DNA of 64,000 bases from Flavobacterium branchiarum (GTDB lineage Bacteria > Bacteroidota > Bacteroidia > Flavobacteriales > Flavobacteriaceae). The stretch spans positions 434,001 through 498,000 of the forward strand of contig NZ_JAUFQQ010000003.1 in assembly GCF_030409845.1 (NCBI RefSeq), read 5' to 3'. Position 1 is the stretch's first letter. Each line of letters begins with the position of its first letter. The position numbers and the translations under genes are program-made. Shown here in pieces: positions 46,486-62,891 of this stretch. The notes beneath the pieces are model-generated. The model saw only the letters and a list, made by a program, of their open reading frames with translations, was not told where the DNA came from and made no database searches.

Positions 46486-47736
46486 ATGGAACAGACAAAA
46501 AAGTCCACGTTCAAACTGCTTTTCTACCTGAAAAAGAACGAACTGAAAAAGAACGGTAATGCACCAATTATGGCACGTATTACCATTGATGGAACACCTA
46601 AAACTTTCGGAACAAAGTTAGAAATCAATCCTAATAATTGGGATTTAAAATACGGAAGAGTTGAGGGAAAGAGTGCCACCGCTTTGAGCGTTAACCAAAA
46701 ATTGGATAACATACGTGGACGTATCGACAAGATTTACGAAGATATGCTGAAGCACGAGGGGTTTGCAACCGCCCAAAAAGTAAAGCTCTCGTTTTTAGGT
46801 GTTGGTGTAATGGAAGATGCCGTACTAAAAGTCTTTAAAGACCAAAACGAAGACTTTGAAAAAATGGTCGCTAAGGGAAAACGCTCTCAAAGCACATATA
46901 GCAAGTACAACACTGTTTACAATCACCTTAGCGAATTTATAAGGGAGCGTTACCATCGTGACGATATGGCTTTCCGAGAACTCACTTCTGATTTTATCCG
47001 TGAGTTTGATTTCTTTCTTCGCATTGATAAGGAATGTACCCATAATACGGTTTGGGTTTACACAATGCCAGTTATTGCTTTGGCAGAATTGGCTATCAAG
47101 AAAGGCTTGATACGGGATAATCCTTTTGAAGATTATGAAATCAGTATGGAAGAAACCGACCGCAGCTACCTTTTAAAAGAGGATGTGGAAACTTTAATGC
47201 TCCTGAAACCATCTAAGCCCCGATATGAACTTGTAAAAGACCTTTTTATTTTCAGTTGCTTTACAGGGCTTTCTTACATTGATATTAAGAAACTGAAATG
47301 GAGCAATATCCAGTCTTTCTTTGATGGACACCAATGGATAATCAGCAGGAGGAAGAAATCAGATGTTGCCTCCAACGTCCGTCTTTTGGAAATCCCCAAA
47401 CGCATCATTGAGAAATATCGTGGAGTTACAAGAAATGATTTTGTATTCCCAATGCCATCCAATGCGACTTGCAACACGCATATAGGTAAACTTATTGAGG
47501 AAGCGAGTATTGTTACAGAACAGAAAGTTACATTCCACACCGCCCGTCACACATTCGCCACAATGTTTTTGACCGAGGGCGTACCGCTTGAAAGTCTTAG
47601 CAAAATGATGGGGCATAAAAATATTTCCACCACACAGATTTACGCCAAAATCACAAGCCAAAAAATCAGTAAGGATATGGATTTAGTTGCCCCAAAATTT
47701 CAGGCTATGGAAGAAGCATTTTTAGCCGCAATCTGA
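46486..47736 (+). CDS. Tyrosine recombinase (IntDOT-like integrase)
   Basis: This 416-residue integrase has an N-terminal arm-binding domain (KNGNAPIMARITIDG, about 22-36), a SAM-like core-binding domain (about 110-210) and a catalytic domain. Catalytic residues seen are Lys290/291 in SRRKKSD, His351-Arg354 in HTARH, His377 in MGHKN and nucleophile Tyr386 in IYAKI. The first arginine of the usual set is Ser263 (TGLSYIDI), as in IntDOT of CTnDOT. It would join and excise the element and tolerate short heterologous overlaps as IntDOT does. A good terminator follows. Confidence 0.95.
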   Translation: MEQTKKSTFKLLFYLKKNELKKNGNAPIMARITIDGTPKTFGTKLEINPNNWDLKYGRVEGKSATALSVNQKLDNIRGRIDKIYEDMLKHEGFATAQKVKLSFLGVGVMEDAVLKVFKDQNEDFEKMVAKGKRSQSTYSKYNTVYNHLSEFIRERYHRDDMAFRELTSDFIREFDFFLRIDKECTHNTVWVYTMPVIALAELAIKKGLIRDNPFEDYEISMEETDRSYLLKEDVETLMLLKPSKPRYELVKDLFIFSCFTGLSYIDIKKLKWSNIQSFFDGHQWIISRRKKSDVASNVRLLEIPKRIIEKYRGVTRNDFVFPMPSNATCNTHIGKLIEEASIVTEQKVTFHTARHTFATMFLTEGVPLESLSKMMGHKNISTTQIYAKITSQKISKDMDLVAPKFQAMEEAFLAAI

Positions 47737-48156: not shown

Positions 48157-48549
48157 ATGAACATCACAGGAAGACTGACAAGGGATGCGGAAGTACGCAC
48201 AACGTCAAACGGAAAACAAGTAGTAAACTTTTCAGTAGCGGTAAACGACAGCTACAAAACCAAACAGGGCGAACGAGTGGAACAAACCGCCTATTTCGAC
48301 TGCTCATATTGGAGAACCCCGAACGCAGTGAAGATACTCACTAAAGGTCTATTGGTAGAACTGACTGGCAGGGTAAGCACAAGAGCGTGGGTAGGCAAAG
48401 ACGGAGAAGCAAAGGCAGGTTTGAACTTTCATACCTCCGACTTCAAACCGCTTGCAGGAGGCAGGAGAGCCGAAACCGTACAGGCTACTGCACAATCTGA
48501 AAGTAACGGATTTACAACACAGGGAGTAGATGACGACCTCCCATTTTAA
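48157..48549 (+). CDS. ssb: Single-stranded DNA-binding protein
   Basis: This 130-residue protein is an OB-fold SSB (NITGRLTRDAEVRT, VNFSVAVNDSYK, YFDCSYW, LTGRVSTRAWVGKDG). It ends in the acidic tip DDDLPF that recruits partner proteins. Element-encoded SSB coats the transferred strand in the recipient. It begins the plus-strand set that includes DUF932 and PRTRC genes. Confidence 0.95.
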   Translation: MNITGRLTRDAEVRTTSNGKQVVNFSVAVNDSYKTKQGERVEQTAYFDCSYWRTPNAVKILTKGLLVELTGRVSTRAWVGKDGEAKAGLNFHTSDFKPLAGGRRAETVQATAQSESNGFTTQGVDDDLPF

Positions 48550-48592: not shown

Positions 48593-49666
48593 ATGGCACA
48601 TAATATCAATTTCAACGAGAGAACAGGACGTTATTCATTTTTCAGCGTTCAGCAAAAAGCGTGGCACAACTTGGGACAAATCGTGGAGCAATACCCGACA
48701 AGCGAGGAAGCTATCAAATACGCAGGGTTAGATTACGAAGTCGTAAAATCTCCACTATTTACCAAAGGTTCGGGCATTATCGAAACTGCCAACGGCATAG
48801 AGATAGGCAGTAGCGAATTAGAAGTACCCAACTATTTCGCCAACATACGCACCGATAACAATGCAGTATTGGGCGTAGTCGGCAAGGATTACCACATTGT
48901 ACAGAACCGTGAAGCCTTTAATTTCTTTGATGCGATTGTAGGCGGTGGCGAGGGCATTCTGTACGAAACCGCAGGAGCGTTAGGCAACGGAGAACGTATT
49001 TTTATCACAGCCAAATTGCCCGACTATATCCGAGTAGGTAAAGGGGATGACGTTACGGAAAAGTACATTTTCCTAACCACTTCGCACGATGGTAGCGGAA
49101 GTATCACAGCCGCATTTACACCTATCAGAATTGTTTGTCAAAATACCTTAAACGCTTCGTTACGCAGTATGACCAATGTTGTCCGTATCAAGCACACTTC
49201 GGGGGCAAAACAACGTATCGAGAACGCTCACAAGATTATGGGACTTGCCAACACATTGAGCAACCAATTAGAGGGCATTTTCAACGAATGGGCAAAAGTA
49301 AAGGTATCAGACCGAGAGGTAAGAAAGCTAATACAGTTGGCACTTTGCCCAAACAAGGAAACGCTTGACCTCATCAAAAAAGGTGCGGAAGATGAAATTT
49401 CCACTGTGTTCAAAAATGTCGTTGAGGATGCTTTTGCGTATGCAATGATAAGCGATACACAGCAAATGGACACTACCAAAGGCACATTGTTCGGAGCGTA
49501 CAACGCTGTTACAGGCTACTATCAGAACGTAAGAAATTATAAGAACGATGAAGCCAAGTTGCAGAGCATTGTATTGGGTGGTACTGCCCAACTCAAATCA
49601 CAAAAAGCATTTGAATTGTGTAGTGGTTTTGCCTTAGATGGTGCGGAAATCCTAAACCTTAATTAA
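48593..49666 (+). CDS. DUF932 phage/plasmid-like protein
   Basis: This 357-residue protein has the family opening FSVQQKAWHNLGQIVEQYP (about residues 18-36) and central VVGKDYHIVQNREAFNFF. ITAAFTPIRIVCQNTLNAS follows near residue 180. DUF932 proteins are common on plasmids, phages and conjugative elements next to ssb; their molecular function is unknown. It follows ssb by 43 bases and is closed by a hairpin. Confidence 0.9.
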   Translation: MAHNINFNERTGRYSFFSVQQKAWHNLGQIVEQYPTSEEAIKYAGLDYEVVKSPLFTKGSGIIETANGIEIGSSELEVPNYFANIRTDNNAVLGVVGKDYHIVQNREAFNFFDAIVGGGEGILYETAGALGNGERIFITAKLPDYIRVGKGDDVTEKYIFLTTSHDGSGSITAAFTPIRIVCQNTLNASLRSMTNVVRIKHTSGAKQRIENAHKIMGLANTLSNQLEGIFNEWAKVKVSDREVRKLIQLALCPNKETLDLIKKGAEDEISTVFKNVVEDAFAYAMISDTQQMDTTKGTLFGAYNAVTGYYQNVRNYKNDEAKLQSIVLGGTAQLKSQKAFELCSGFALDGAEILNLN

Positions 49667-50136: not shown

Positions 50137-50745
50137 ATGAACACAAATTTTTTCAATCAGATACAGCAGTTGGACTTTACAGGAGTTTTACAACTGAACA
50201 TTTCAAAAGGAATAGAAAGCAACTTAATTGTAACTGTATTGCTCAACAACGAAGAATGCGGAGATAGTGCCAAAAACGGTATTCCCCCATTGACCTTTAA
50301 TGCCACGCCCCAAGAGTTTGACGAGGGATTTTTTGAACAGATAACAACACCTATACAAAAGGTATCGGGCTTAATGGTGGATATGGAAAAATTCCTAAAG
50401 CAATTGGAAGAAGTTAAAAAGCATTCCGCAATAGAAAAGGAAAAAGCCGAGAAAGCCAAAAAGGAGAAAGAAGCCAAAGACAAGAAGTTTAAAGATGCTA
50501 TGGCAAAGGCTGACGAGTTGGAGAAAGAGGGCAAATTCCGTGAAGCGTGGATAAAAGTACCCGATATAACGGAGTTCCCCGAAAAAGCGGACGAGATACG
50601 CAAACGTAAAACATCATTGTCCGACAAGTTTGCCACACCAAGCCTTTTCGGAGCAATGGAAGAAGCAAAACCCGAACCGCAAAAAGAGGAAGAAGTTACT
50701 GCCGATTATCCTATTGATGAAGCGGACGAAGAAGAACAGTATTAA
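50137..50745 (+). CDS. PRTRC system protein E
   Basis: This 202-residue protein has a globular N half (FFNQIQQLDFTGVLQLNIS). A long Lys/Glu-rich coiled coil (about 85-135) and an acidic C terminus follow. The order of the following genes (C, F, B, ThiF) identifies it as component E of the ParB-related, ThiF-related cassette. Its biochemical role is unknown; the coiled coil suggests a scaffold. Confidence 0.82.
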   Translation: MNTNFFNQIQQLDFTGVLQLNISKGIESNLIVTVLLNNEECGDSAKNGIPPLTFNATPQEFDEGFFEQITTPIQKVSGLMVDMEKFLKQLEEVKKHSAIEKEKAEKAKKEKEAKDKKFKDAMAKADELEKEGKFREAWIKVPDITEFPEKADEIRKRKTSLSDKFATPSLFGAMEEAKPEPQKEEEVTADYPIDEADEEEQY

Positions 50746-50763
50746 CACTTAAAAACGACCATT

Positions 50764-50982
50764 ATGTTATTAGCAACCCAATTAGAGCGAGTATTTATCC
50801 TCAATGATACAGGACAGGACATCAGATTGACCGACCCAGAACCACGTTGGAGCGTGGAAGCCGTAATGAATTTTTACGCCAATATGTACCCGATTTTGAC
50901 AACAGCAAAAGCATCCGCACCGCAAATCAAAGATGATGTGGTAGAGTACAAATTTGAAAGCGTAATGGGTACGAAAGGTTAA
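50764..50982 (+). CDS. PRTRC system protein C (prokaryotic ubiquitin-like)
   Basis: This 72-residue protein matches the small PRTRC component C, which is classed as a beta-grasp, ubiquitin-like protein. Visible are two N-terminal strands (RVFILNDTGQDIRLTDP), a central helix (SVEAVMNFYANMYP) and a last strand (VEYKFESVMG). The chain ends in Gly (TKG), so it could be activated by an E1-like enzyme without prior trimming. It is encoded between E and F, three genes before the ThiF/E1-like enzyme. Confidence 0.85.
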   Translation: MLLATQLERVFILNDTGQDIRLTDPEPRWSVEAVMNFYANMYPILTTAKASAPQIKDDVVEYKFESVMGTKG

Positions 50983-50999
50983 ACAAAAATTATAAAACG

Positions 51000-52166
51000 A
51001 TGAATTATGCAACGCAATATCATATCGGGAATTATCAGCATACCCGAACAGAAACGACAACAACAGTTACACCGACAGTTGGGCGGGTTCGCAAATTGGC
51101 TACAAAGACCAAAGGACGCAAACCAAGTGCAGAAAGACAAGCAGAAATCCGTACCGATAGCAATGCTACCAATGGTATTCTAAAGTGTACGTTTCTGCCT
51201 AAACTGAAAACAGCACAATCCGTACAGGCTTGTCAGAAAACGGAGAGGGATTTTTACAAGTCCCTTTCCCGACTTGCCGAACATTACAGCATTGAGCCAA
51301 TGCAGACCCAAGATTTTGATTTTCCCTACAATATGGCATTGGCTATGTGGGATGTGGAAACCAAAGTAAAACGTACCAATATCAATTGGGATAGTTTCAA
51401 ATTGCTACAGGACAGTAAGAAAACCTACTTCACAAGTGAGGAACGATACAATACAGGCACAACCTTGTATTATATTCCTATTGCACCACTCTTTAAAATG
51501 CTCAAAGACCCGAAGCGTAAAAAGACTGCACAGCTTTTAATATCAGTATGCAGTTATCTGTACCATATTGCCGATGTACCGTATTACAGGCAAGAAGACA
51601 GCTATTTGTATTGGCTATATGAAACGCATAAAGATTGGGTAGAACAGGACGAAGAAACGGGCGAAACCGAAACGTATAAAAGTGAGTTAAGAAATGCAGA
51701 ATATATTGGCGATAATATAGAACAGAAGCTATTTAACCGTATCAATTTAAAGGTATTTGAACAGCGTTTGAGCCGATTTAAAAGCGTTGATATATTCGAC
51801 AGGAAATGTTGGCAGATAGCTTGTAATGCCTTTGCCCTTTATACGGAATATCCGAACGCACCCATTTTCAGAAATGCACCATTGCCCGAAGAAGACCCCT
51901 ATAATGATGATTACGAAACCGAAGCAATCGGAATGGAAAAGTATATCTCTTTTATTTCCGATACCAAAGGTTGGTTATATGAAAGCCTTAAAGACAGCAT
52001 CAACAACGAGTTTAACGAGTGCGGAGTATTGGAAGAACCGACCATTTGCAAATCCTTTGACGGCAGTAAAACAAAGACAAATAACCTCGATTTTGAGAAC
52101 CGTCTGTTTGCCGTATTGGACGACCTCTGTACCCTATTGTATGACTATAAAACAACAGAAAAATGA
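51000..52166 (+). CDS. PRTRC system protein F
   Basis: This 388-residue protein is identified by position and by size within the cassette. The first 65 residues are Thr/Arg-rich and probably disordered; the ordered part starts near FLPKLKTAQS. No catalytic motif is evident. The stop overlaps the ATG of component B (ATGA), so they are translated together. Confidence 0.78.
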   Translation: MNYATQYHIGNYQHTRTETTTTVTPTVGRVRKLATKTKGRKPSAERQAEIRTDSNATNGILKCTFLPKLKTAQSVQACQKTERDFYKSLSRLAEHYSIEPMQTQDFDFPYNMALAMWDVETKVKRTNINWDSFKLLQDSKKTYFTSEERYNTGTTLYYIPIAPLFKMLKDPKRKKTAQLLISVCSYLYHIADVPYYRQEDSYLYWLYETHKDWVEQDEETGETETYKSELRNAEYIGDNIEQKLFNRINLKVFEQRLSRFKSVDIFDRKCWQIACNAFALYTEYPNAPIFRNAPLPEEDPYNDDYETEAIGMEKYISFISDTKGWLYESLKDSINNEFNECGVLEEPTICKSFDGSKTKTNNLDFENRLFAVLDDLCTLLYDYKTTEK

Positions 52167-52882
52167 ACACCGTAAACGACATAACCAAAGATTTCGGTAC
52201 ATTGTATTATCCAAAATCCGCTTTGGTATTCTACGAAACCAAAGGCACAGATACAGCAATGTACGTGGAGCATTTCGATATGGATAGCAACGGAACGCCT
52301 ACCAATGCCCACCCATTGACAGTAAAAGAAGCCAACGTATTGGCAAAGGCTTTACAGACCGATGAAGAAAAGAACACAGCTTTTTTAAAGCCAAATGGAA
52401 TTTTGCCGACCAATATTCTGCATATCAGTCCGAGCGAAAAAGGTACGGTGCTATGGTACACGAAAGCACAGCAAAGACAACTGTATTTTGTAGATAGTTT
52501 GGGCATACCCAACGGAAAGGCACAAGTACCACCAATGCTTTGGTTAGCGAGCAAAAGCAGTCTTACTGTATTTGCTTTGGCAAGCGACAGAAGACCTACC
52601 GAGAAAACGCCATTGCATTACGTCCCATTTTTCAATATCTACGAAAAGGGCAACGTATGTATGGGTACTGTTAGTATTGACATTAAAAATTCGGCTTCGG
52701 TTGAGGAATTTACCCGCGCGTGGGAACATTATTTTTTCAATTCCTATTTCAGCCATTCATTATGCGAAAACTTGACGAAAAAAAACATTGTAAACCTTTG
52801 GAAAGACCTTATCAGCACAGATAAACCCTTTCCGAAAGAAGTATTAAAAAAGAATAACAAAACCCTTAAAAATCTATTGTGA
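52163..52882 (+). CDS. PRTRC system protein B
   Basis: This 239-residue protein has the family pattern YPKSALVFYETKG near the start, then GILPTNILHISP and VPPMLWLASK. Its function is unknown. It is coupled at both ends: ATGA with F and TGATG with the ThiF gene. Confidence 0.82.
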   Translation: MNTVNDITKDFGTLYYPKSALVFYETKGTDTAMYVEHFDMDSNGTPTNAHPLTVKEANVLAKALQTDEEKNTAFLKPNGILPTNILHISPSEKGTVLWYTKAQQRQLYFVDSLGIPNGKAQVPPMLWLASKSSLTVFALASDRRPTEKTPLHYVPFFNIYEKGNVCMGTVSIDIKNSASVEEFTRAWEHYFFNSYFSHSLCENLTKKNIVNLWKDLISTDKPFPKEVLKKNNKTLKNLL

Positions 52883-53688
52883 TGAATACAGCAAAAACAG
52901 CAATCCATTTTACGGACAATTATCTGCTCAATCCGACCAATCCGATTTCGGTAAACCTTATCGGAGCAGGTGGCACAGGCTCTAAGGTACTGACCGCTTT
53001 AATGGAAATTAACGAGAGCTTGATAGCATTAGGACACGCAGGGTTGCAAGTCCGCCTTTGGGACGATGATGTTATCACGAATGCCAATTTAGGCAGACAG
53101 CGATTTTTTGAATGCGAAACAGGATTGCATAAATCCGTTGCTCTGATAAACCGTATCAATCGTTGCATCGGTACAAATTGGAAAGCCGAAACGGTAAAAT
53201 TTGAAAAGGATAAGTTTGGCAGAATGCCCGAAAAAGCAAGGGCAATCATTACTATTACTTGTGTGGATAATGTACAGGCAAGATTTGGTGTTGCTGAAAT
53301 TCTTAAAGAAATAAGTTACCGCAGACACTACCAAGATGAACCAAAATATTGGTTGGATTTTGGCAACAGCCAAGATACAGGACAAGTGCTACTATCTACT
53401 ATCGGAGAGATAAAGCAACCCAATTCAGAGAAATACCAAACGGTGGCAAGCCTGCCATTTGTTACCGATGAATTTGGCGAATTGCTGAAGCAATCCGAAC
53501 AAGAGGACAACACGCCAAGTTGCTCACTTGCCGAAGCGTTGGAACACCAGGACTTGTTTATCAATTCATCATTGACACAAATGGGTTGTTCCTTGTTGTG
53601 GAACTTGTTCCGCAGGGGAATGACCGAATACAAAGGATTTTTTCACAATCTGAAAGACTTCCGCACCCACCCGATAAAAGTCGCCTGA
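52882..53688 (+). CDS. PRTRC system ThiF-family (E1-like) adenylyltransferase
   Basis: This 268-residue Rossmann-fold protein adenylates the C terminus of a ubiquitin-like partner. It has LIGAGGTGSK (about 26-35), the DDD-V-x-x-x-N-x-x-R-Q motif (WDDDVITNANLGRQRF, about 60-75) and ITCVDN. Cys in SCSLAE (about residue 213) is a candidate thioester cysteine. I use the ATG at 52882, overlapping the B stop; a GTG three bases earlier is also possible. With component C it forms an E1/Ubl pair. Confidence 0.9.
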   Translation: MNTAKTAIHFTDNYLLNPTNPISVNLIGAGGTGSKVLTALMEINESLIALGHAGLQVRLWDDDVITNANLGRQRFFECETGLHKSVALINRINRCIGTNWKAETVKFEKDKFGRMPEKARAIITITCVDNVQARFGVAEILKEISYRRHYQDEPKYWLDFGNSQDTGQVLLSTIGEIKQPNSEKYQTVASLPFVTDEFGELLKQSEQEDNTPSCSLAEALEHQDLFINSSLTQMGCSLLWNLFRRGMTEYKGFFHNLKDFRTHPIKVA

Positions 53689-59181: not shown

Positions 59182-60516
59182 TTATTTTTTAGATACAAGG
59201 AAGACCTGATGCCCCGCTTTTAGCGTAACCTTTGGGGTTCTTACCTTTTTGGCGAAATAGCCCGAAACACCCTGTACCACGCCACGGCTTAAATCAGCAG
59301 CAACCTGTTGTCCTGCATTCTGCGTGAGCATTATGCTTGTTCCCGAAGTCTGGCTCATATTGCCCGCCATTTCGGTAAGGGCGTTCATTTCGGGCGAATA
59401 CGGAACGTACAAGCCTTGCTGTCCGTCCAAATCGTAAATAGTAATATCAACCGGAATGATGTTGCCCTCTAATTCTACGGAGGTAATTTTTAGCTGTAAT
59501 CGTCCACCCTGAAATTTGGCATTAGCTGTTACAATCGTTCCTTTTGGAATGGTACGCCCGGGCGTTTGGGCTGGCTCTAACAATCGCAATCGTACCCCTG
59601 TTTCGCCGATAACCGTTTGTGCATCGTGTACACAGGCTTTGATACTGTTTTTCGGTTGTGCCGTTTGCTCAATAGAACCTGCGGTATAAAAGCCCCGGTT
59701 TCTTGTTTCGCTCCAATCGGCTAAAAAGGCACTGTCCGTAGGCTCACGATACAAAGCGGAAACGGTGTTTTTCCTTGTCGGTGTAAACGCTACAAAATGT
59801 TCTTTTTGAGTTGAACCGGTCGTAGCTGTACCTGCACTTTTAACAGGTGGAGCTTCTGTCGAATTTGTACCCGTTGGCAGATACTTTGCCGCCATCTGGT
59901 AGGATTTCTCCATTAGGGCAAGCTGGTCATCAACGGTTACAGATTTAGGCACATCTTTCTCGGCTAATTGTTCTTTTAGTTCGTCCAATTGCCTGCGGAG
60001 TTCTGTTGTTTCCGAGTTGTTATCCTGATAAAATGAACCCAATGTGCTTTGTGCATTGCGGTAACTGCTCAATGCCGGATTGCCGTTTCTGCCCGAACCT
60101 CTGCCACCGCCATAGCTGTTGCTTTCGTCTTCTTCGGAAAATTCATCATTAGGCTCTTTTTTGTCTTCAGTATTCCAATAGTCAGAAAGCGTGGTAAGTG
60201 CATTGCGTTTTTCTTGCTCTTTGCGTTCCAGCATTTCCAACTCGTAAGCCTTGCCTTTGTCGGCAGGCATTCCTGCTCCGGTAGCCTCTGGTACTGCATC
60301 GTTCAGCCCGATGTTCTCGATTTCCTTTTTGTCTGCGGATGGTTTAAATATGAGGTACATACAACCTACGAAGACAATTCCCATTAAGCCAAAGATGAGC
60401 GGCTTTTTGAGCTTTTCGGCTTTGTTCTGTGTACCGTCTTGCGGTACATCAGCGGTTGCTGCCTGGTTCCCTTCCGTTACCCGAACAACCGACTTTTTGT
60501 TCTCATTTTCTTTCAT
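59182..60516 (-). CDS. traM: Conjugative transfer protein TraM (VirB10-like)
   Basis: This 444-residue protein has a cytoplasmic N terminus and one membrane helix (about 39-59). A Gln/Glu-rich periplasmic linker with a coiled coil (about 165-195) follows, and then the C-terminal TraM domain (RLRLLEPAQTPGRTIPKGT, QGLYVPYSPEMNALTEM). It spans the envelope as the VirB10-like part of the core complex. It overlaps traL by 14 bases. Confidence 0.93.
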   Translation of the reverse strand: MKENENKKSVVRVTEGNQAATADVPQDGTQNKAEKLKKPLIFGLMGIVFVGCMYLIFKPSADKKEIENIGLNDAVPEATGAGMPADKGKAYELEMLERKEQEKRNALTTLSDYWNTEDKKEPNDEFSEEDESNSYGGGRGSGRNGNPALSSYRNAQSTLGSFYQDNNSETTELRRQLDELKEQLAEKDVPKSVTVDDQLALMEKSYQMAAKYLPTGTNSTEAPPVKSAGTATTGSTQKEHFVAFTPTRKNTVSALYREPTDSAFLADWSETRNRGFYTAGSIEQTAQPKNSIKACVHDAQTVIGETGVRLRLLEPAQTPGRTIPKGTIVTANAKFQGGRLQLKITSVELEGNIIPVDITIYDLDGQQGLYVPYSPEMNALTEMAGNMSQTSGTSIMLTQNAGQQVAADLSRGVVQGVSGYFAKKVRTPKVTLKAGHQVFLVSKK

Positions 60517-61895: not shown

Positions 61896-62891
61896 TTATT
61901 TCCCCATTAACTTGCCACCGATATTTCCAACTGCCGAACCTGTTCCTGCTCCGGCGATATTTCCGGTTTTCATTGCGGCTTGGTTTACGTTACGGGTAAA
62001 GTTTCCTGCACCGCCTGCCTGAATAATCCAGCCTGTTACCGTTGGGATAGTGAAGTAGCCCACGATACCGATTATCATAAAGATGATGTACACGGTATTT
62101 GAGGTATCAGGAATGTAAGTCGGGTCGGCAAGCATTGCTATATCCTTTTCGATAATGAGGGATTGTATTTTGGCAAGCATAGAGCTGAACAGGTCTGCCA
62201 CAGGCAACCACAGGTAAACGCTGACGTATCGGGTCAGCCATTGCGTGAGCGTGGACTGAAAACCGTCCCACACGCTTATCGCAAAGGCTATCGGCCCGAG
62301 TATGGACAGGACAATGAGAAAGAACGTCCTTATGGTATCAATAACCAAAGCTGCTGCCTGAAACAGTACCTCTAACAGATTGCGAAACCAATTCTTAATA
62401 GCTTGTTCGGTTTGGTAGGCAAACCTATCCATATACATTCCCGACATCGTAATCAAATCGCCGGGCGACCAGCCCAATTCTTCGAGCTTTTTATCAAATT
62501 CCTCATTTGATACGAGATAGGCTGTTTCAGGATTTCGTAGCATAGCTTCCCGTTCGAGCAGGTCTTTTTTCGCCTGCAAATTGTTGAGGTCAAGCACCTG
62601 ATTTTCGAGGATTGTGTGAGTACCCTGTACCACCGGACTTAACACGGCATTGATTGTTCCCAATACGATAGTTGGGAAAAACATAATGCAAAGCCCCAAA
62701 GCGAAAGGACGAAGCAAAGGGTACATATCAATGGGTTCAGCCCTGCTCAAAGCCTGCCATACTTTTATGGCAACATAGAACAAAGCCCCCAATCCGGCTA
62801 TCCCTTTAGCCACTGCCGCCATATCGGCGGACAGTGGGAGCATCTCATCATATAATGAGCGTAGGACTTCGTGAAGATTTTGAAATTCCAT
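61896..62891 (-). CDS. traJ: Conjugative transfer protein TraJ (VirB6-like)
   Basis: This 331-residue polytopic protein has at least six hydrophobic segments, beginning with ADMAAVAKGIAGLGALFYVA, and a periplasmic region around residues 95-165. The Gly/Ala-rich C terminus (GNIAGAGTGSAVGNIGG) is typical. It matches TraJ in length and place. It forms the inner-membrane pore of the system. Confidence 0.93.
   Translation of the reverse strand: MEFQNLHEVLRSLYDEMLPLSADMAAVAKGIAGLGALFYVAIKVWQALSRAEPIDMYPLLRPFALGLCIMFFPTIVLGTINAVLSPVVQGTHTILENQVLDLNNLQAKKDLLEREAMLRNPETAYLVSNEEFDKKLEELGWSPGDLITMSGMYMDRFAYQTEQAIKNWFRNLLEVLFQAAALVIDTIRTFFLIVLSILGPIAFAISVWDGFQSTLTQWLTRYVSVYLWLPVADLFSSMLAKIQSLIIEKDIAMLADPTYIPDTSNTVYIIFMIIGIVGYFTIPTVTGWIIQAGGAGNFTRNVNQAAMKTGNIAGAGTGSAVGNIGGKLMGK

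Follow-up and report, generated by a model that had tools for sequence, protein, structure and literature searches.

The 64,000-nucleotide stretch of Flavobacterium branchiarum DNA considered here (RefSeq assembly GCF_030409845.1, contig NZ_JAUFQQ010000003.1, positions 434,001 to 498,000; the window, numbered from its first letter) contains a cassette of five closely spaced plus-strand genes at 50137-53688, carried on a chromosomal conjugative element. The cassette belongs to the PRTRC type, a name that stands for ParB-related, ThiF-related cassette and covers NCBIfam models TIGR03734-TIGR03742. The gene order is E, C, an open reading frame (ORF) in the F position, B and ThiF. This arrangement, which had been proposed from the sequence alone (the sequence-only reading), is borne out by exact coordinates, by matches to NCBIfam models and by the integrase, Tra and Mob genes of the element, with F assigned by position (Table 1).

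The five genes of the cassette

Components E, C, B and ThiF were placed with the curated NCBIfam cut-offs, which B clears by only 0.55 bits. The F-position protein has no NCBIfam match up to E=10 and no Pfam match, so that its label comes from position alone; its profile matches ten F-slot proteins from outside the Bacteroidota (proteobacterial) weakly, with an hhalign probability of 6% and an E-value of 0.006. Neither PADLOC (7 proteins searched) nor PHROGs (10 proteins) names E, C, F or B, and a sequence search of solved structures returned nothing for B or F and three chance-level matches for C. Of 183 compared loci, 79 share this five-gene order, nearly all of them in Bacteroidota, and the arrangement is therefore not due to chance. 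A second set, in which C, F and ThiF lie together, is present on contig C5 of the same genome.

Component C is a ubiquitin-like protein (Ubl) that ends in ESVMGTKG and thus exposes a free C-terminal glycine, Gly72, next to an E1-like enzyme, as the sequence-only reading had described. Its AlphaFold model (predicted local distance difference test score, pLDDT, 87) has many matches to ubiquitin, FAT10, NEDD8 and protein G/L, all with weak E or Z values; the structure comparison is thus supportive of a beta-grasp-like fold through weak matches. The model of B (pLDDT 89.4) retrieves only E2 chains or E2-containing entries in the first 40 VIA-align rows, and its Cys166 lies in a ubiquitin-conjugating (UBC)-like motif followed by a conserved downstream His198. 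In ThiF, the adenylation-site residues are conserved across the compared loci, and all 89 Bacteroidota loci retain both the E1 and the E2 cysteine. Because B is E2-like with an invariant cysteine, a three-part Ubl-E1-E2 cascade is predicted, and the earlier proposal of a minimal pathway consisting of a Ubl and an E1 is to be replaced accordingly.

Table 1. Features of the cassette, of the element that carries it and of related tandem Ubl genes. Positions are those of the window unless a locus number (L) is given.
Feature	Position	Strand	Evidence
PRTRC E, 202 aa	50137..50745	+	PF19556 7.7e-74; TIGR03741 44.1 bits vs cut-off 37.95
PRTRC C, ubiquitin-like protein, 72 aa	50764..50982	+	PF14454 Prok_Ub 92.8 bits vs cut-off 25; TIGR03738 61.7 bits vs 45.95
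G-T-K-G codons directly before the stop of C, predicted conjugation end	50968..50979	+	aligns with the motif preceding the tails of JAB-positive relatives
F-position protein, 388 aa	51000..52166	+	homolog in 79/79 eligible Bacteroidota loci; outside curated families
PRTRC B, E2-like (Prok-E2_D), 239 aa	52163..52882	+	PF14460 7.9e-37, 127 bits vs 25; TIGR03737 132 bits vs 131.45
Cys166 codon of B, predicted E2 catalytic cysteine (NIYEKGNVC)	52658..52660	+	Cys in 182/182 loci having the column
ATGA overlap of B and ThiF; site of gene A in JAB-positive relatives	52879..52882	+	gene order B-A-ThiF in relatives
PRTRC ThiF, E1-like adenylating enzyme, 269 aa	52879..53688	+	TIGR03736 236.3 bits vs 144.75
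Cys215 codon of ThiF, predicted E1 thioester cysteine	53521..53523	+	Cys in 183/183 loci
Tyrosine integrase of the element	46486..47736	+	PF00589, PF17293, PF13102; homolog in 50/71 eligible loci
Single-strand DNA-binding protein (ssb), upstream	48157..48549	+	PF00436/TIGR00621; 71/72 eligible Bacteroidota loci
DUF932 phage/plasmid-like protein, upstream	48593..49666	+	TIGR03299; 68/72 eligible loci
Conjugation protein TraM	59182..60516	-	PF12508 6.8e-45
Conjugation protein TraJ	61896..62891	-	PF07863 2.4e-15
Four-unit poly-Ubl C genes of Bacillota relatives	L243:4141-4878; L240:1651-2457; L241 and L242:1981-2727		

Absence of the JAB component and of D and ParB

In proteobacterial relatives that encode the JAB-type component A, its gene stands between B and ThiF (E-C-F-B-A-ThiF), as in Cupriavidus metallidurans plasmid pMOL28, where ParB stands in front, and in Azonexus. 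B and ThiF of the window overlap by 4 bases and therefore leave no room for gene A. A profile built for A gave a best E-value of 34 in the window, that is, no A, and the Prok-JAB family PF14464 has no match in the whole genome (control matches were obtained in 8 of 14 genomes). Component D (TIGR03739) is likewise missing from the whole genome, the model matching 4 of 7 PRTRC plasmids used as a control. No PRTRC ParB (TIGR03734) lies near the set, the sole match in the genome being below the cut-off and about 170 kb away (C3:659696). These wider searches uphold the earlier statement that A, D and ParB are not in view. The genome does encode four RadC proteins, which have the JAB fold; the one closest to the set is encoded about 90 kb upstream.

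For the comparison of relatives, a locus (L number) was called JAB-negative when no ORF on the ThiF strand within 6.5 kb matched the A profile at E 1e-3; the strongest sub-threshold match among all JAB-negative loci has an E-value of 3.0. The Bacteroidota sample comprised 89 loci: the window, 80 from a contig scan (the best 80 of 247 relatives), 5 from whole genomes, 1 from a plasmid and 2 from viral contigs. A was found near none of these 89, and it is also missing near eight of the plasmid loci from outside the Bacteroidota whose C was read, so that a reduction special to this cassette is not supported. Scanning of whole JAB-negative records, of which the viral ones are possibly fragments, gave no PF14464 match in 18 of 19, and all six JAB-positive controls matched; the remaining record, a Vibrio plasmid, has a weak sub-cut-off match (E 1.4e-5) about 35 kb away.

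Among 15 further Bacteroidota genomes, 12 have no PF14464 match and three have one each. These three JABs lie in a 766-aa or a 463-aa ORF that also matches ThiF, or beside a 641-aa ThiF-like ORF, and therefore belong to other E1-JAB genes. Such genes, fused or side by side, are seen at L246:3815-6225, L247:4886-7183 and L249:6235-7623. In two of the three genomes the distance from JAB to cassette is only about 18 kb and about 23 kb, respectively, and the JAB may help in trans there.

Presence of JAB and the C-terminal end of C

The ends of C were compared over the 183 loci, nine of which had no C row, leaving a first set of 174 proteins. For some loci (L131, L136 and several on plasmids) the C gene is the annotated one or was read directly from a frame; direct reading also restored L138 to the comparison, and no clear C emerged for L231 and L237. 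In the first set, C ends exactly at the glycine in 97 of 98 JAB-negative loci (Bacteroidota 84/85, phage 8/8, plasmid 5/5), the single exception, L111, having a truncated C (L111:6885-7055), whereas in 70 of 76 JAB-positive loci C runs 1 to 100 residues past the glycine. In further plasmids, C ends at the glycine in all three JAB-negative loci and is extended in seven of nine JAB-positive ones, L138 included; L235 and L238 are the JAB-positive plasmids whose C ends at the glycine. Four more loci, from Bacillota (L240-L243, judged with the same profiles as the others), all have both a JAB and a tailed C. Altogether, C ends at the glycine in 100 of 101 JAB-negative loci and is extended in none, and it is extended in 81 of 89 JAB-positive loci and ends at the glycine in eight. 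Most tails are preceded by GTKG or GAKG, with L048 and L233 as exceptions among extended proteins, and JAB-negative plasmid C proteins often end in TNG, SNG, RG or similar.

A Fisher test of 81 and 8 against 0 and 100, which ignores kinship, gives a tiny p-value. On trees, there are about five changes in JAB presence and only three independent pairs on supported branches, in about two of which the tail follows JAB and in none of which it goes the opposite way (p about 0.5). The pattern in these sequences is thus striking but, with so few independent changes, falls short of significance on the phylogeny. The link between the presence of JAB and the end of C, including the tandem poly-Ubl proteins described below, appears to be new. 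It backs the earlier proposal that C of the window would need no trimming.

Because JAB presence tracks an extended C, the pattern supports the idea that JAB is the maturation protease of a C precursor. Each of the 79 JABs encoded in the 183 loci keeps an H-x-H...S/F-x-x-D/N pattern. Phage tails of at least 20 residues (n=60) fall into 12 clusters without detectable mutual similarity, and the motif that precedes them is nearly constant. Among 105 pairs of loci whose ThiF proteins are at least 85% identical, only five, all involving L152, have tails of differing clusters; tail exchange between close kin is therefore rare. JAB-bearing PRTRC-type sets with C fused to tails of these 12 clusters are frequent in phage-classed contigs (L147-L226).

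In Bacillota, C can be a poly-Ubl protein made of tandem Prok_Ub-type units, each ending in AGTKG, encoded next to JAB, E2-like and ThiF genes. Two units are present on a Cytobacillus plasmid (L230:544-885), and four on a Bacillus velezensis plasmid and on three large contigs classed as viral by IMG/VR, of which L241 and L242 are the same contigs as L244 and L245. In L241, ThiF is split over two ORFs (L241:6917-7874). Cleavage after the G(T/A)KG motif is indicated because the tails vary while the motif is constant, and because the tandem units each end in AGTKG. The eight JAB-positive C proteins that end at the glycine suggest that loss of the tail can precede loss of JAB and that JAB keeps a second job.

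Proposed mechanism and alternatives

The cassette is probably an element-borne ubiquitin-like protein conjugation system in which C is made pre-trimmed and passes from ThiF to B to a protein, a reading that draws on gene content, the conservation of catalytic residues, the E2-like model of B, the beta-grasp-like model of C, the absence of JAB and the pattern of JAB and tails. ThiF would adenylate Gly72 of C, which would then be held as a thioester on Cys215 of ThiF and handed to Cys166 of B, and B would attach it to a protein, with E and the F-position protein possibly being accessory factors involved in the choice of target. Where relatives encode a JAB, C would mostly be a precursor, cleaved by JAB after its G(T/A)KG-type motif. 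The Bacteroidota lineage would make C ready to use, a maturation protease would therefore be unneeded and missing, and attachment would proceed without dedicated reversal within the set. If JAB also acts as an eraser, the Bacteroidota system would be one-way.

As to the target, the nearly constant presence of ssb and the DUF932 gene beside the set in Bacteroidota suggests a DNA-handling protein, either of the host or of the element; it would be the most likely candidate, and it serves as a lead that is plausible and no more. A bolder version, to which only a small probability can be given, holds that JAB was lost once maturation was no longer needed, that the resulting one-way system without an eraser modifies an element-encoded protein of single-strand DNA or of replication, SSB being the first candidate, and thereby marks transferred DNA complexes during mating, and that the phage and plasmid relatives make JAB-processed precursors of up to four units. 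It is also conceivable, at rather long odds, that C goes to a special or non-protein acceptor such as a lipid, a nucleic acid or a dedicated partner (for example SSB or the F-position protein), much as ATG8 is joined to a lipid, so that no general E3 or deconjugase would be needed. Neither a JAB nor an E3 is recognised in the set, and the steadiness of the F-position homolog and of ssb among Bacteroidota loci (Table 1) would suit such a target.

ThiF might instead make a thiocarboxylate of C, as is the case for ThiS and MoaD, and C would then donate sulfur to a small-molecule or tRNA pathway. A ThiF-family enzyme beside a beta-grasp partner, with weak matches of the E1 to ThiF models, speaks for this; however, the E2-like B, whose cysteine is invariant in every locus reaching that column, the JAB-linked precursors and tandem Ubl proteins, the single glycine at the end of C and the lack of metabolic genes among the steady neighbours of the window set make a sulfur carrier improbable. 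A role in phage defence, in which the cassette would resemble type II CBASS (cyclic-oligonucleotide-based antiphage signalling system) or Bil and work with the CBASS cyclase and prokaryotic Argonaute (pAgo) of the element, is quite unlikely too. Conjugation of Ubl type can reportedly be antiviral, according to one study, and the element does carry a CBASS cyclase, a two-transmembrane (2TM) effector and a long pAgo; on the other hand, PADLOC lacks a model for E, C, F and B and gives only a weak E1-E2 match to ThiF (3.6e-5), and phage-classed contigs themselves carry such E1 and E2 proteins (80 loci kept). That loss of JAB marks a system on its way out would find some support in that loss itself and in the truncated C of L111, but the intact E1 and E2 cysteines and the glycine end of C in Bacteroidota leave it very little probability; a decayed remnant is disfavoured by residue conservation. 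Protein conjugation by C, ThiF and B thus fits these observations best, and the sequence-only reading is confirmed in its observation and partly supported in its interpretation.

Relation to known systems

The operon class itself had already been described. Row 6d of an earlier survey combines a Ubl with a conserved C-terminal glycine, an E1, an E2-like protein with a cysteine and a downstream histidine, a helical protein and a JAB, and includes Bacteroides thetaiotaomicron among its species; protein modification was predicted for this row, with JAB acting in processing and removal (Iyer et al., 2006; PMC1779556). The passages on row 6d name neither a target nor a purpose, and give neither the coupling of JAB and tail nor tandem Ubl proteins. 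The window resembles this row, as described there, in its standalone Ubl with a C-terminal glycine, its E1, the cysteine and histidine of its E2-like protein and its extra protein. It differs in lacking a fused or adjacent JAB, which those passages state to be always present. In B. thetaiotaomicron, the listing in a transcriptome study of BT2645 (PRTRC E), BT2647 (hypothetical) and BT2648-2649 (E2 family D and ThiF) is, as far as that listing goes, compatible with the five-gene set of the window (PMC10434189). A search of the open-licence literature found no experimental study of 6d-class sets.

Compared with other PRTRC cassettes, E, C, B and ThiF of the window exceed the curated cut-offs and the order is the same, including the F slot, but A, D and PRTRC ParB are missing, F is unrecognised by any model, and the set, which belongs to a conjugative element in the chromosome, is preceded by ssb and DUF932 in place of ParB. 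BilABCD also joins a Ubl, an E1 and an E2, and its JAB-type BilC opens the C-terminal glycine of BilA (PMC11354881); it differs in its two-domain Ubl, its E1 with a cysteine domain and its own JAB, whereas the window set has a Ubl of one domain, a single E1 of ThiF type and no JAB. The tandem Ubl repeats of the Bacillota relatives recall the poly-Ubl operons of row 6e as outlined in the survey, from which those sets differ by matching E2-D, by having a separate JAB and by carrying two or four repeats.

Type II CBASS encodes an E1-E2 protein (Cap2) and a JAB (Cap3). The likeness of the window set lies in E1 and E2 chemistry at a mobile defence locus, and the difference in its separate E1 and E2 genes and its own Ubl. 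The hallmarks of type II CBASS and Bil, an E1-E2 fusion and a two-domain Ubl with a JAB, respectively, are not found in the window set.

Host element and distribution

The integrase and Tra genes of the window, together with RteC and MobA/B/C beyond it, identify the carrier as a chromosomal Bacteroidota conjugative element. A TraM homolog occurs in at least 41 of 71 eligible loci, a lower bound because the gene sits near the edge of the fetched flank. Further along the element, beyond the window (L034:2903-15324, equal to G000:C3:500903-513324), lie type I restriction-modification genes, a CBASS cyclase accompanied by a 2TM effector, and a long pAgo together with a partner gene. The two elements of this genome apparently have in common a cargo block that includes a resistance-nodulation-division (RND) efflux pump (L035:5845-13856 and L043:5475-13485), most ORF sizes matching and families having been scanned for L034 and L035 only. 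Outside the Bacteroidota, ParB adjoins the set in many plasmid records, and a gene for DNA polymerase III beta, the sliding clamp, lies within several kb in 6 of 27 annotated plasmid regions (L134, L135, L138, L227, L229 and L237); these neighbours likewise make a target in DNA handling plausible, and no more than that. A Shewanella plasmid has a gene with a BRCT domain between its E2-like gene and ThiF, and no clear C was found there (L231:2204-4084). The neighbours in phage contigs are dominated by spurious ORFs of high guanine-cytosine contigs; one of eight cluster representatives has a Pfam match, to an S24-like peptidase.

The form without JAB is usual in Bacteroidota and is also present in some plasmids and phages. 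A contig scan with Bacteroidota ThiF patterns yielded 247 relatives, the best 80 of which all carry Bacteroidota names, and an even draw across the phylum gave an above-cut-off match in 4 of 198 genomes. In plasmid records, 374 match the window-type ThiF and, separately, 122 match a gammaproteobacterial A, the two lists being unpaired. Phage-classed contigs of IMG/VR gave 246 ThiF relatives, of which 80 were kept, all with B. The ThiF of the window is 98% identical to that of six contigs (L049-L054) labelled with several flavobacterial and sphingobacterial genera, which is a sign of recent transfer.

Significance

Sets of the 6d class were predicted in 2006 to be true bacterial ubiquitin-like systems (PMC1779556). 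The operon class is thus of a known kind, and what is added is the pattern that joins JAB to the tail of C, a sign drawn from sequences of what JAB does and one that names the exact predicted cut site. The Bacteroidota set without JAB would be the simplest for rebuilding in the test tube, because C needs no processing. If the proposed cascade is confirmed, a functional pathway for protein tagging, one that seems to lack a dedicated eraser, would be present on widespread mobile elements of Bacteroidota.

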